NCBI GenBank assembly: GCA_944389925.1
Contig: CALXOD010000037.1
Coordinates: 62,001 to 126,000, forward strand
Source of the DNA: an uncultured Victivallaceae bacterium
GTDB taxonomy: Bacteria; Verrucomicrobiota; Lentisphaeria; Victivallales; Victivallaceae
Length of the DNA: 64,000 bases
Direction of reading: 5' to 3'
This document shows, piece by piece, positions 8,111-15,326 of the stretch (its first letter is position 1; each line of letters opens with the position of its first letter). A program made the position numbers and the translations under genes. The notes beneath the pieces are model-generated. The model was not told the origin of the DNA and did not search any database. It saw only the letters and a program-made list of their open reading frames with translations.

Positions 8111-8735
8111 GGATATATCTCCTGTGGTTGGGGTTGAACCGGTTGATCCGGTTGAAAAAATCCTGCAGATCCGTGCAGGTGTCCAGCGTCCGGTCGGCGA
8201 ACCGTTCGATCTGTCGGTACAGTTGCATGCGTGAAAGAGATTCTTCGGGGTTGCCGAAGACCAGCCAACCGCCCCGGTGTACGGGTGTCCGAGGGAGTTT
8301 GTCCATAAAGCCGACGACGTCTTTGGCAGGATAACCGATAAAAACGCCGACCTCATGAGGCAGGAATTCGCGGGAAAATCGTTCACGCAGCATGGTCAGC
8401 AGGGTTTCTGTAGTTGCGTTTTCGGGGTAGCCGCAACGGGTGAGGATGGCTCGTTTTTCGGGCAGAGCCAGTTCCTGGCGCAGTCGTTCCGGATGGTAGA
8501 AGAGAGCGAGTGAGCTTTGCGGTTCTGCCCGCAGTTCGAGATAGTCGAGTCGAAGCGTGTGGAAAATGTCCCGGCGATACAGGCAGAACTGAAAGCCTTC
8601 GGCGTTGCGCATCCGGTAACAATGGCGGACGCGGAGCAGTTCCGCGGGTTTGAGGCCGCTGCGAACCGCTGCGGTTTTAACCAGCAGGAAGCGGAGCAGT
8701 TCCTTGCGATGGTCTTCACAAATGGGAGGAAGCAT
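8103..8735 (-). CDS. DUF3793 family protein
   Basis: A 210-residue cytoplasmic protein matching DUF3793 by its layout: an N-terminal TAAVRSGLKPAELLRV segment, a middle region with Tyr/Arg-rich strands, and HEVGVFIGYPAKDVVGFM followed by GGWLVFGNPEESLSRM. The biochemical role is unknown; members are commonly encoded next to flavodoxin genes. AGGAG sits upstream of ATG 8735. This is the first gene of the transcript that starts at the DtxR-type box promoter at 8815-8856, which implies expression when iron is low (inference). Confidence 0.8.
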   Translation of the reverse strand: MLPPICEDHRKELLRFLLVKTAAVRSGLKPAELLRVRHCYRMRNAEGFQFCLYRRDIFHTLRLDYLELRAEPQSSLALFYHPERLRQELALPEKRAILTRCGYPENATTETLLTMLRERFSREFLPHEVGVFIGYPAKDVVGFMDKLPRTPVHRGGWLVFGNPEESLSRMQLYRQIERFADRTLDTCTDLQDFFNRINRFNPNHRRYIHG

Positions 8736-9873: not shown

Positions 9874-10075
9874 TTTTTTTGTCCGTTTATTTGTTAGGTA
9901 TTTGTAATATATATCAGACTTTTATTTTCTTCAAGGGGGACACTCTCTATTTCTGATGAAAACAGGAGGTTTTTATTATATATAATGTTAATAATTCAAT
10001 TGTTATCATGTTCTGTTGTGGTTTGTATGTTTTTTATAATGGTATATAATATATAAAAATTCCAGTAACAGCTAA

Positions 10076-10111
10076 ATTATATGGGATTGTAGTTTTTGGA
10101 AATGCTATATT
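10076..10111 (+). repeat. Degenerate terminal CRISPR repeat retaining only its 3' half
   Basis: Aligned without gaps to the consensus repeat, positions 18-36 match at 17 of 19 bases, including the whole AATGCTATATT end, whereas positions 1-17 match at only 4 of 17. The exact 30-base distance to the next repeat shows that it is a real array unit. Confidence 0.85.
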
Positions 10112-10442
10112 CTTTTGCCTTTTCGATAATGGAAAGTGTCAGCTGGAGCTTGTAGAGTTTTTTGACAATGCTATATTGACGATTTGCTTTTTAAGCCTAT
10201 TTGCAAGGCTGGAGCTTGTAGAGTTTTTTGACAATGCTATATTAGCGTTCCGTAATGCAATCACTGCGCATTAGCTGGAGCTTGTAGAGTTTTTTGACAA
10301 TGCTATATTGTTGACGAAAAATTGGAACCCGAACAATTCGCTGGAGCTTGTAGAGTTTTTTGACAATGCTATATTATAAAGGCAAAAATACTTGGTCTTC
10401 AAACACGCTGGAGCTTGTAGAGTTTTTTGACAATGCTATATT
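10076..10442 (+). CRISPR. Type II-C CRISPR array, five spacers
   Basis: Five identical 36-base repeats at 10142-10177, 10208-10243, 10274-10309, 10340-10375 and 10407-10442, beginning GCTGGAGCTTGTAGAG and ending TTGACAATGCTATATT, plus a degenerate repeat at 10076-10111. Spacers lie at 10112-10141, 10178-10207, 10244-10273, 10310-10339 (30 bases each) and 10376-10406 (31 bases). The plus strand is assigned as the crRNA strand because the first 18 bases pair with the tracrRNA anti-repeat at 14846-14863. Each repeat ends in TGCTATATT, an extended -10 element, comparable to the repeat-embedded promoters known in Neisseria II-C arrays. I see no match of any spacer to the rest of the window by eye. 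Confidence 0.97.
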
Positions 10443-10491
10443 GTATCGGTCATAATTAGTTGAAAGATGATACTTTACAATATGGATTGAT

Positions 10492-10839
10492 TCAAAAAAG
10501 CAGGAGTTGTTCCGGTTTTTTCTCCACCTCCTGCACCGTTTTTCCGTAAAGCGAAACCATGTCGCCGAACTGTTTGTCCGTCACCATCAGCAGCCGCACA
10601 TAGCCGCCGGGCGGTACGATTTCCTCAATGTAACGATAGTATTTGCGCGCATTTTCCCGGCAGGAGGAGTATTTCGCGTAAACCGAATACTGCAACGCCA
10701 TAAAGCCTTCGGACAATAAAAACTTCCGGAAATGCACATACTGCCGCTTCTCTTCCGGCGTGACCACCGGCAGGTCAAACATCACCATCAACCACATGGC
10801 CTTGATCTCCGAAACGGGAGTCCGGTCCGATGTCGCCAT
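10492..10839 (-). CDS. cas2: CRISPR-associated endonuclease Cas2
   Basis: A 115-residue Cas2, the dimeric partner that bridges two Cas1 dimers during spacer capture. The ferredoxin-like fold starts AMWLMVMFDLPVVTPEEKRQY, with the conserved Asp in MFDLP, and continues with ALQYSVYAKYSS and GYVRLLMVTDKQF. The correct start is ATG 10839, which shares its A with the cas1 stop codon (TGATG); the longer open frame to 10929 lies inside cas1. The 3' end is 49 bases from the last repeat of the array. Confidence 0.95.
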   Translation of the reverse strand: MATSDRTPVSEIKAMWLMVMFDLPVVTPEEKRQYVHFRKFLLSEGFMALQYSVYAKYSSCRENARKYYRYIEEIVPPGGYVRLLMVTDKQFGDMVSLYGKTVQEVEKKPEQLLLF

Positions 10840-11720
10840 CACCCGAACTCCAGCAGTTTTTTCTTTTCCGCAAAAGAGGCGGCCAGCTGCCGGGCATGAA
10901 GAGTCAGCAGCTCCGTCAAGCCGTGCCACTCGCCGTATCGGCGAACCGGTTCCAGCAGGCCATTCAGCAGCGCGCGGCGCTGTTCCTGCCCGATGCCGGA
11001 GAGCGGCTGATTCGCCGGATTCAAACCGACCGCCACCCGGTCCACCAGACAGCGGTACGGCTCCATCAGGTCGTCCGCCAGACAGAAGGCATTATAACGG
11101 TTCCGGTGATGAATACCCAGCGTCGGATGCAGCCCCGCCCCGCAGATCGCCCGTGCCGTCATCGCCCGCAATACTGCATATCCGTAATTGAGAAGCATGT
11201 TGTTGTCGGTGGCCTCCCGGTCACGGAGAAACGGTTGGTCGAACAGCATTTTCCAGTAAATCACCGCCGCCCGGCCCTCCAGATTGTCCGGATCCCCGGA
11301 GCGAACCCGGTCTGCCAGCGCCGTCAGTCCTCCGTCATGGCCACGCAATTCCTGTAATAAGCCTCCCTGAGCTTTGATTTTGGCCGTTACCACCGTCTGC
11401 CACAGGCGCTTCCGCAGCGGCAGCGCAGCGGCGGCCTGAAGACGGAAGCGCTCGTTCTGCAGATAGTTCGCCGCCAGCGGCAGCTGCATCGCCGCCGGCA
11501 GCCGGTCCGGTCCGGAAATCACGACCGCCACGCCCGCTTCCGCCAGGGCCGCCAGCAGGGCGCCGGTGATGGAGACCGCCGGCACGCCGAGAATCACGCA
11601 CTCGATCTCGCCCAGCGGCACCCGGTGTTCTTCCCCGTCGGTGGTCCGGAGCACCAGCAGGCGGTTCTCCAGACTCAGCCGGGCCGATCGTTCGGCAACT
11701 TCGATGATGCGCTTAGTCAT
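10839..11720 (-). CDS. cas1: CRISPR-associated endonuclease Cas1 (type II)
   Basis: A 293-residue integrase for new spacers. The N-terminal beta domain is followed by the helical catalytic domain with metal ligands Glu148 (DNLEGRAAV), His204 (TLGIHHRNRYN) and Asp217 (ADDLMEPYR). I chose ATG 11720; GTG 11726 is two codons upstream. It overlaps the end of cas9 by 8 bases and the start of cas2 by one base, so cas9-cas1-cas2 is one operon. No csn2 or cas4 is present, which makes this subtype II-C. Confidence 0.96.
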   Translation of the reverse strand: MTKRIIEVAERSARLSLENRLLVLRTTDGEEHRVPLGEIECVILGVPAVSITGALLAALAEAGVAVVISGPDRLPAAMQLPLAANYLQNERFRLQAAAALPLRKRLWQTVVTAKIKAQGGLLQELRGHDGGLTALADRVRSGDPDNLEGRAAVIYWKMLFDQPFLRDREATDNNMLLNYGYAVLRAMTARAICGAGLHPTLGIHHRNRYNAFCLADDLMEPYRCLVDRVAVGLNPANQPLSGIGQEQRRALLNGLLEPVRRYGEWHGLTELLTLHARQLAASFAEKKKLLEFG

Positions 11721-14700
11721 TGGCACGCCGCAGTTCGCCGAGCGGAGTCGTCCGGAATTTCACCATGCCGCCCTTGAAGGCGGCGGAAAGTGTCGGCCAG
11801 AACCACAATTTTGCGGATATCAACTCCTGTTTCAAGCGCGCTTCATGGATCGGTGTGCAGGAGAACTGCGGCAGTGAGACGCCGCGAATGACGCAGAGAT
11901 ATTCTTGACCGTCCCTGGTCCAGCGGACCAGATCACCTTTGCGCAGGGTGAATTTGAGCGGGTTGCCGTTTTTAACTTTCGGATAAACCGGTTCTCCCCG
12001 CTGGAGACGCAGCCGGGCGTCCAGTACGCTGACGATTTCACCCTCCCAGCCGACTTCCCGGCCTGCGGCATCCCGTTTGGCATAGATGGCCAGCACGTGA
12101 TTGGCGCCGTTCTGCACTTCACGGCGGCGGTCTCCGGTACCGATGGTCCGGGTCGTCACGTTCTGACGGACCCGGACGCAGCGGATGGTGTTGACCGGGC
12201 GGCCGAAACGGTCGCACAGTACCGGCAGATTTTTTTCATCCGTAAACGCTTTCCGGGGATCGGGCTGGCCCAGTTCCGCCAGTTTCTCCGTCACCGCCCG
12301 GCGGATGGCGTCGTCGACGATGTCCGCCACGCCGCCCGCGTCCAGAGCATCCAGCCGGCGCCGGACGTGCCGCAGATTGCCGCCGTGGGATTTGCTGTAA
12401 ATCGTTTCCCGATGCAGCGCGCCGCGGATCTTGTTCACCACGTGGTGCGAAATGCCGACCGTTGCCAGCATTGCCCGGGCCTGCGTATACAGGGGATTGA
12501 TAATCAGAGGCTGCTTTTCCTCTATGGCCTGTTTGCGCACTGCCAGCGGCATTTCCGCCACGGCTTTGACGATGGCCGGCGAGCTGACTGCTATTGTCAG
12601 GGCGTCGATTGCGTGTTGGCGATGGTCGGTACGGACTTTTTCACCTTCACCCAGCAGGTAATTGCCACCCCAGGCGCGCCGGACCACCGCGGTGCAGCCG
12701 CCGGCGCTGCACTGCAATCGCAACGTGCCGTGCCGATCCCAGCGGCCGCCGTACAGAAGCGCCAGATATTCCATGGCCAGCTTGCTGGCATAACGGGTGT
12801 CGTTGAGATTGCGTTCGATGAAATCCTGAATGCTGGTTTCCTCCATCTGGAAGCGTTCCAGTTTGGCGGCGGCAAAGGGCCCCTTGAAGTGCCGGACCCG
12901 TTCCAGAATCTTCTGATACTCTTCCGCGGGAAACGCCTCGAACGGCAGACGGTCGCCTTTGGCCGCGTTGGCGTCGCGCAGGCTCAGGGTTTTATTGGCG
13001 TAGGAGTCGTCCATGGAGCGGGAATACGGCACGATGTGTTCGATATGCACCAGACCGCCGTGCAGCAGCTCGTGCATGGAGAAACGTCTCCCGGTGTAGG
13101 GACAGGTGAAATCGCATTCTTCGGCCAGCATGACTTTGAGAATATCCCGGCGCGAGGGACTGGTAATGCCGGCTTCGCGTGTGATGGCGGCGGCGATTCC
13201 GGCGCGCTTCTTTTCCTGGTCGCGGTTGTTGCGGGTGATCCGCTCCCGTTCCTTGCCGCTGTTTTTGAGGTTGCGGGCCAGCTCCAGCCGGATCAGGTCG
13301 GGCTTGCCGTATTGGCGGATGACGGCGTTGACTACTCGGCGCATTTCCGTCAAGGTCCGGTGGACGATGGGGTTACGCAGTTCGATGTCGGTGTCGTCCA
13401 GCGGCGGCAGCAACTCCAGCACCCGGTCGGTGGCTTGAAACTGTTCCGGATACTCGGCCTTGATCACCGTGTTGAGCGCGAGACCGGACTCCAGGCCCGG
13501 CAGCAGCCGTTCGAGGGCCCGGCGCGAAAAATTGCAGTAGCCTTCGGGCAGGGGCAGGCGGAGGGCTTTTTCCGCGGTTTCTTCGTTCAGTCTCCAGCGT
13601 TCGCGCAGAATCCGGCGCAGGACTTCATCTTTTTCAATGGAAACAAGCTGATGCAGAAAAAGTTCCCGGTCGGCGGCGCTCATCATTGCTGTCGCCGTCC
13701 CGAAGACTTGAAATAAAATCGCATGCAGCGCGTGGCCGTTGATCTGTTTTTCCTCGTCGCCAAGCGTGAATTTTTCGCCCTTGCCGAGACCGGCAAGTTT
13801 TCCCAGCCGGGAGAGCGCAATGGTTCCCTGAACGGTTAGTTCTCCGCTCAATCCATCCAGTACCGTCAGAACTTTCCGGCGTTCCTCTTCCGTCAATGTA
13901 CGCACGATGCCGCCTCTGCCGCTGACCCGCAGATGGTTGACTCCTTGAAGCACCCGGAAGTGCTGGGCGAGAGGATCCAGGAGGGAACAGCGCCGCCGAT
14001 CCGGTTCCAGCTGGCAGGTGCCGATCAGATGCTTGCAGCTTTTCAGTTTTCGTTGAAAGAAGATGGCGTGATGCAGTTCCTTTTCCAACGCTTCGGAAAT
14101 CAGGTCGCGGCGGGCGGCGCAGATTTTGTGCAATTCCTCCTCGAACATGCTGCGCTCGGTGTACCGGGTGCGGATCCGGCGCTGCTCCGGATCAAGTCCG
14201 GCGAAATATTCTCCGAGCGTTCGCGCTCCGGATGCCTGTATGGCCTGCTTCAGTTCCGCAATCTGCGACAGGACCACGCCGGAATCGGTGTCTTTCGCCT
14301 CCTGTTTGCGATTGCTTTTGTATCCTCGTCGCTGACCGAGATGGTAGAGGGCGCGCCCCAGCTGCATGGGGGAAAGCGGTCGATCCAGTGCTGCCGCCCG
14401 CAGCAGGTACGGCAGAACGTGGGCTCCCGTCCTGCGCCGTTCTTCCGGGAGAGTCTGCAGAAATTCTCCGTCGATGCGTGTGAAAAATTCCGGAGTCAGG
14501 TCCGATGGCAGCATGCCCGTCCGGGTCAGGATGGCGGTCAGTTCATCTTTATGCTGCCGACGGCGTTGGTAAGCGATTCGTAACGCCCGTTTCAGGCGGC
14601 GTTCGGCGCAGCGCGACTCGCCTTTCCCGGCAGTGATTTCCTCGTCTGTGGCCGCGAGGCCCGGTTCGAAAATCCGAACGCCCCAGTCCAGCAATGCCAC

Positions 14701-14781
14701 CTGATCGTCCCGGTCGTCGTCTATGATTGCCCACCCTACCGAGCTGATGCCGAGATCAAGGCCGAGGATCCGCTGCTTCAT
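11713..14781 (-). CDS. cas9: Compact type II-C CRISPR-associated endonuclease Cas9
   Basis: A 1022-residue RNA-guided DNA endonuclease. RuvC-I is ILGLDLGISSVGWAI with Asp9; an Arg-rich bridge helix spans about 57-78; RuvC-II is LIRLELARN with Glu500; the HNH motif is HIEHIVPYSRSMDDSYANK with His582 and Asn596; RuvC-III is TDHRQHAIDALTIA with His723 and Asp726. All nuclease residues are therefore intact. Two Cys pairs (556/560 and 691/696) flank the HNH domain and could bind zinc. The remaining 290 residues hold the wedge and PAM-interacting domains, which are too divergent for a PAM prediction. It is the first gene of the cas operon; AAAGGAG precedes ATG 14781. Confidence 0.98.
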   Translation of the reverse strand: MKQRILGLDLGISSVGWAIIDDDRDDQVALLDWGVRIFEPGLAATDEEITAGKGESRCAERRLKRALRIAYQRRRQHKDELTAILTRTGMLPSDLTPEFFTRIDGEFLQTLPEERRRTGAHVLPYLLRAAALDRPLSPMQLGRALYHLGQRRGYKSNRKQEAKDTDSGVVLSQIAELKQAIQASGARTLGEYFAGLDPEQRRIRTRYTERSMFEEELHKICAARRDLISEALEKELHHAIFFQRKLKSCKHLIGTCQLEPDRRRCSLLDPLAQHFRVLQGVNHLRVSGRGGIVRTLTEEERRKVLTVLDGLSGELTVQGTIALSRLGKLAGLGKGEKFTLGDEEKQINGHALHAILFQVFGTATAMMSAADRELFLHQLVSIEKDEVLRRILRERWRLNEETAEKALRLPLPEGYCNFSRRALERLLPGLESGLALNTVIKAEYPEQFQATDRVLELLPPLDDTDIELRNPIVHRTLTEMRRVVNAVIRQYGKPDLIRLELARNLKNSGKERERITRNNRDQEKKRAGIAAAITREAGITSPSRRDILKVMLAEECDFTCPYTGRRFSMHELLHGGLVHIEHIVPYSRSMDDSYANKTLSLRDANAAKGDRLPFEAFPAEEYQKILERVRHFKGPFAAAKLERFQMEETSIQDFIERNLNDTRYASKLAMEYLALLYGGRWDRHGTLRLQCSAGGCTAVVRRAWGGNYLLGEGEKVRTDHRQHAIDALTIAVSSPAIVKAVAEMPLAVRKQAIEEKQPLIINPLYTQARAMLATVGISHHVVNKIRGALHRETIYSKSHGGNLRHVRRRLDALDAGGVADIVDDAIRRAVTEKLAELGQPDPRKAFTDEKNLPVLCDRFGRPVNTIRCVRVRQNVTTRTIGTGDRRREVQNGANHVLAIYAKRDAAGREVGWEGEIVSVLDARLRLQRGEPVYPKVKNGNPLKFTLRKGDLVRWTRDGQEYLCVIRGVSLPQFSCTPIHEARLKQELISAKLWFWPTLSAAFKGGMVKFRTTPLGELRRAND

Positions 14782-14845: not shown

Positions 14846-14928
14846 AACTCTACAAGTTCTGGTAAAGAACTTCTGCAGGCGACTTTCCGCGGAAAGTCCT
14901 CCAGGCGGCTTCAATAGCCGCTTTTTTT
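14846..14928 (+). ncRNA. tracrRNA of the type II-C system
   Basis: The 18 bases AACTCTACAAGTTCTGGT (14846-14863) can pair without a break with the first 18 bases of the CRISPR repeat (14 Watson-Crick and 4 G-U pairs). Downstream are a hairpin GACTTTC-CGCG-GAAAGTC (14881-14898) and a terminal hairpin GCGGCT-TCAAT-AGCCGC (14905-14921) followed by seven T. An alternative stem AAGTTC/GAACTT (14854-14859 with 14867-14872) would compete with the wobble-rich end of the duplex. The RNA would be about 83 nt, transcribed opposite to cas9. It pairs with pre-crRNA for RNase III processing or guide assembly and is bound by Cas9 (family knowledge). Confidence 0.9.
14905..14928 (+). terminator. tracrRNA terminator
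   Basis: Six-bp GC-rich stem GCGGCT/AGCCGC with a 5-base loop and T7 directly after it. This also forms the 3' structural hairpin of the tracrRNA. Confidence 0.85.
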
Positions 14929-15149: not shown

Positions 15150-15225
15150 TGGAGCGAGTGACCGGAATCGAACCGGCGACAATCACGTTGGCAACGTGAT
15201 GCTCTACCAACTGAGCTACACTCGC
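15150..15225 (-). tRNA. tRNA-Gly (GCC)
   Basis: A 76-base cloverleaf with encoded CCA: acceptor stem GCGAGTG/CACTCGC, D-arm GCTCAGTTGGTAGAGC, anticodon stem TCACG/CGTGA around loop TTGCCAA, T-arm CCGGTTCGATTCCGG. It is the second of two identical copies 25 bases apart and is probably cotranscribed with the first. Confidence 0.97.
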
Positions 15226-15250
15226 TTGTTGCTGCTGACTGAAAAAAAAC

Positions 15251-15326
15251 TGGAGCGAGTGACCGGAATCGAACCGGCGACAATCACGTTGGCAACGTGA
15301 TGCTCTACCAACTGAGCTACACTCGC
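15251..15326 (-). tRNA. tRNA-Gly (GCC), identical second copy
   Basis: Same 76-base sequence as the copy at 15150-15225, including CCA. It is the promoter-proximal copy, with the predicted promoter at 15346-15373. The complete identity suggests a recent tandem duplication or gene conversion. Confidence 0.97.

Follow-up and report, generated by a model that had tools for sequence, protein, structure and literature searches.

The CRISPR array in the window, a stretch of 64,000 nucleotides from an uncultured Victivallaceae bacterium (contig CALXOD010000037.1), is bounded on its left by a worn repeat that has lost its predicted pairing with the tracrRNA and retains an intact extended -10 element. 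This end of the array is probably the trailer, and the worn repeat, which no longer has a pairing role, appears to keep the promoter needed for the adjacent spacer 1. In related arrays that are read in the same direction, decay of the terminal repeat is likewise biased to the 5' half, and arrays of the opposite polarity show the mirror image. The relevant features are as follows.

10015..10048, + strand: second, older degenerate repeat, changed in both halves (score 28 at the expected period)
10049..10079, + strand: putative fossil spacer of 31 nt separating the degenerate repeats (from the spacing of the copies)
10080..10111, + strand: degenerate repeat, placed at 10076-10111 in an earlier, sequence-only reading of this DNA (gapped alignment and duplex energy)
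10103..10111, + strand: extended -10 element TGCTATATT, unaltered, putative promoter of spacer 1 (sequence)
10112..10141, + strand: spacer 1, 30 nt, the oldest with a usable pairing repeat beside it (sequence)
10142..10442, + strand: 36-nt repeat in five identical copies, with four spacers (30, 30, 30 and 31 nt)
10443..10491, no strand assigned: probable leader side, from the newest repeat to cas2, with GTATCGGTCATAA adjoining the repeat in common with the related locus L031 (sequence comparison)
10492..10842, - strand: cas2 (TIGR01573, 4e-16)
10839..11726, - strand: cas1, type II (TIGR03639, 6e-72)
11713..14781, - strand: cas9, 1022 aa (TIGR01865, 2e-178)
14847..14928, + strand: tracrRNA, with anti-repeat at 14847-14862, hairpins and a T-run (anti-repeat search and fold)

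A type II-C locus with two degenerate repeats

The sequence-only reading recognized the array, the tracrRNA and the degenerate first repeat, all of which are present, together with cas9, cas1 and cas2. These parts make up a complete type II locus. Since neither csn2 nor cas4 was seen between the array and the start of cas9, its gene content is that of type II-C. Uncultured Lentisphaeria supply the closest relatives, with Cas9 proteins 94% and 92% identical to that of the window. As had been proposed, the first 18 or so bases of the repeat pair with the tracrRNA: the predicted energy of the duplex between the anti-repeat and this part of the + strand consensus repeat is -28.7 kcal/mol, so that the crRNA sense is rightward, in the direction of the cas genes. 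A search of Rfam left the tracrRNA unmatched. Farther along the window, two tandem tRNA genes on the - strand (15153-15225 and 15254-15326) have equal scores and similar flanks; a match to YrlA that spans both of them (15153-15326) is below threshold (43 bits, with a cut-off of 69) and is probably an artefact.

A single copy of the array is present in the genome. Its intact repeats start at 10142, 10208, 10274, 10340 and 10407, and the extended -10 element is present in all five, where it could serve as the crRNA promoter for the spacer that follows. New spacers probably enter at 10442, next to cas2; this acquisition end is suggested by the decay at the opposite end together with the short conserved flank beside cas2. 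The -10 element of the newest repeat faces out of the array (10407-10491), into the leader and toward cas2, to which it is antisense. A comparison of the five spacers with a viral contig collection produced no exact protospacer match. A scan of the region for consensus promoters was uninformative (6 matches, with 3.0 expected, sd 1.9). A candidate -35 box within the repeat (TTG, positions 9-11) was dropped as evidence, given that several repeats without a -10 element, in arrays of the opposite polarity, share the TTG. Upstream of the array, a hairpin or terminator that might act against extraneous crRNA was sought and the fold was no better than that of shuffled sequences (z 0.38); the one terminator-like site, at 9934, is weak and near chance.

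The degenerate copy next to the intact repeats has its last base at 10111, with the 30-nt spacer 1 directly after it. Comparison to the consensus without gaps finds matches at 4 of its 17 leading bases and at 17 of its 19 final ones (p 1e-4 for the bias), as the sequence-only reading had counted. That arithmetic is right for an ungapped comparison, but the loss in the 5' half is inflated when indels are ignored: in the gapped alignment of 10080-10111, 12 of 18 bases survive in the 5' half, compared to 16 of 18 in the 3' half, a bias that for this copy alone is not significant (p 0.23). Six of its eight changed positions fall within positions 1-14. Predicted pairing with the tracrRNA drops to -10.7 kcal/mol, within the range of shuffled sequences (mean -8.2 kcal/mol; 17% of the shuffles pair as well as the degenerate repeat), and TGCTATATT is intact. 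Thus, the proposal that the pairing half was lost and the promoter half kept holds up, and, on predicted energies and motif identity, a dead pairing half beside an intact -10 element is a sound functional description of this copy.

Contrary to the earlier assumption, this repeat is not the outermost one, given that an older degenerate copy lies one period outward, at 10015-10048, with 6 and 4 changes in its two halves; the 31 nt between the two copies correspond to a normal spacer length. The 10080-10111 copy is likely to be the outermost repeat still in use. The likely history, as these remains suggest, is stepwise: the 10080 copy would have lost its pairing half, the spacer to its left would thereby have been silenced, and the outer repeat left without a function.

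Terminal repeats in arrays of the two polarities

About 70 loci from the same order and phylum were collected via Cas9 or type II Cas1, their arrays were detected by script and oriented by the usual start of the repeat, plus the anti-repeat where one was detectable, and both ends of the arrays were searched for degenerate copies. Under these sequence-based orientation rules, which are specific to this analysis, the arrays fall into two polarity classes: class P, with the crRNA sense toward the cas genes (the window, L031-L049 and L096-L139), and class A, with the crRNA sense away from the cas genes (L081-L095, L117-L119 and L134). Orientation is doubtful for the sister loci L106 and L107 and for L125. 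The counts of half bias given below leave out L093, L106 and L125, as well as L046 and L048, which have the same patterns as L043 and L035, respectively, and L107, where the trailer end is cut.

A hexamer resembling a -10 element is found at the end of the repeat in 41 of 50 distinct class P repeats and in 1 of 14 from class A (Fisher 4e-7). In both classes, the terminal repeat with changes lies, with few exceptions, at the cas-distal end; the leader-side repeat is unchanged in nearly all arrays, and non-terminal repeats are almost never changed. Among 37 usable non-redundant class P arrays, the terminal repeat is changed in 19; of these, 14 are biased to the 5' side and 3 to the 3' side, and 2 are tied. 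The changed terminal repeats of class A are biased to the 3' side in 7 cases, to the 5' side in none, and tied in 1 (Fisher 3.5e-4 for class P versus class A). Thus, the biased conservation of terminal repeats in related arrays that the sequence-only reading called for is found, with a mirror image in the opposite polarity, and even decay along homologous copies, which would speak against that reading, is not the pattern in most arrays. Judged from these sequence counts, the mirror-image bias fits retention of the half that is still used.

On the Cas1 tree, the polarity label requires about five changes, and four independent pairs lie on well-supported branches; these numbers do not suffice for a phylogeny-corrected test. 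Beyond short matches at the level of chance, a search within the family yielded no homologous flank, and the contigs of the closest relatives end inside the array or next to it.

Several further observations concern individual loci. Cas9 is about 1,020-1,115 aa in the class P loci checked and about 1,270-1,480 aa in most of the class A loci checked, and in several class A loci an anti-repeat is located between cas2 and the array. In the class P loci L034, L038, L043 and L046, the repeats end in TACACTTGATT, with no -10 element in the last six bases, and those of close relatives end in TGCTATATT; in these four loci the promoter may sit elsewhere or may be lost. The intact repeats of L036 end in TACATT, and two degenerate repeats at its trailer end (at 8665 and 8731 in the reverse complement of the locus) have CATATT and TATATT, as in sister arrays; the fossil copies may hold the ancestral letter.

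Explanations for the biased decay

The explanation that best accommodates these results places the left end of the window array at the trailer, where the array, which is of type II-C and most likely gains spacers at its other end, is oldest. The -10 element of each repeat would start the crRNA of the following spacer, and the 5' half of the next repeat would pair with the tracrRNA. The 10080-10111 repeat would then be the oldest copy still used; with no spacer on its left to serve, its pairing half would be free to decay, and its promoter would be retained on account of the continuing need of spacer 1. The outer unit, 10015-10079, would be dead, and its repeat accordingly worn over its whole length.

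A first alternative, which is rather unlikely, involves no selection on the promoter. Exchange between neighbors could homogenize the repeats and fail where the last copy faces outward, and changes would spread inward from there. The distribution of changes along class P terminal repeats, counted in 6-nt blocks from the outer edge inward (34, 13, 6, 5, 4 and 4), falls off in just this manner, and most of the class A changes are also near the outer edge. Under a uniform spread, more changes would be expected in the last six bases than are observed (p 0.007), yet these bases are not less changed than the middle of the repeat. Given that conservation of the -10 block does not exceed that of the middle blocks, an edge effect accounts for these observations as well; purifying selection on the promoter, as opposed to decay graded from the outer edge, is not demonstrated by these sequences. 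The sequence-only reading had taken the selective decay to be what such selection would leave, and this part of it does not stand: the two processes cannot be separated here, and in L049 the -10 element itself is changed (CATACC for TATATT) beside an intact series of spacers and repeats. Edge decay, however, demands fast exchange or recent copying to account for the near-absence of changes in other repeats, and, with repeat promoters of the Campylobacter jejuni type being functional (PMC3656092), the inner half should be under some selection.

A second possibility, which we consider rather improbable, is active selection to disable extraneous crRNA: a crRNA without a guide would occupy Cas9, so that loss of pairing would be favored. 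This idea was put forward by Feussner et al., in whose data the extra repeats pair more weakly (PMC12080349), as does the worn repeat of the window, but, according to its own authors, positive selection cannot be shown (PMC12080349). Moreover, the terminal repeat is unchanged in 18 of the 37 class P arrays, and neutral decay yields an identical pattern.

Finally, the flank is about 70-80% A+T and the -10 motif is common, but it is highly improbable that the copies at 10015 and 10080 are mere AT-rich sequence, an explanation largely refuted by their alignment scores (28 and 35, respectively), which exceed the maximum of 26 among 4,089 composition-matched, AT-rich non-array windows (the score of 35 is reached by none of these), and by the position of both copies at the array period.

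A broader scheme for type II-C in this phylum can be proposed tentatively, at somewhat less than an even chance of being correct. It comprises two polarities, both seemingly growing next to the cas genes, one with crRNAs directed toward cas, -10-containing repeats and decay on the 5' side, and the other with crRNAs directed away from cas, repeats lacking the -10 element and decay on the 3' side. A ratchet would bring arrays with the first polarity to their end, in which loss of a pairing half silences the upstream spacer and the next repeat out then decays evenly, as at 10015-10111.

Relation to known arrays

Repeat-embedded crRNA promoters are known from Neisseria, and in arrays transcribed from the leader end, such as type II-A, the half expected to be lost is the 3' one. 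The class A loci analyzed here show this loss of the 3' half. In C. jejuni, each crRNA starts from the -10 element of the upstream repeat, at position five of the spacer (Dugar et al. 2013, PMC3656092). Unlike the C. jejuni and Neisseria promoters, the window element belongs to a member of the Lentisphaeria and is known from sequence alone.

The closest precedent is the analysis of 357 type II-C systems by Feussner et al. (2025, PMC12080349), in which mutations affect 60% of the extra repeats, compared to 5% of other repeats, fall mostly in the first 15 nt and go with weaker tracr pairing; these authors also suggested that the promoter of the extra repeat must be retained. The worn repeat of the window is similar in that it would be the first transcribed and the oldest, is changed at the 5' side and has weakened pairing. 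It differs in that the decay is heavier and involves indels, a second fossil unit lies outside, and the 10080 copy is therefore not the outermost repeat. The positional analysis of Feussner et al. dropped repeats that differed by at least 2 nt in length (PMC12080349), so that heavily decayed copies like that of the window fall outside it. Decayed trailer repeats are also described for type II-A and other arrays (works cited in PMC12080349), with changes gathering in the oldest repeat. The two polarities are relevant to the suggestion that type II-C may comprise subgroups with different acquisition ends (PMC12638026), except that growth beside the cas genes seems to hold for both classes described here.

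Thus, the preserved half-repeat as a promoter, which the sequence-only reading singled out as the notable point, was already published (PMC12080349). The core of the finding is known biology, of which the window is a clear but ordinary example; the second fossil unit corrects the earlier reading, and the mirror-image decay extends the comparison slightly. Retention of the still-used half at the worn end of such arrays is confirmed for a phylum that is distant from those of Neisseria and Campylobacter, and the mirror-image comparison provides a simple sequence test of array polarity, an acknowledged problem for type II-C (PMC12638026).
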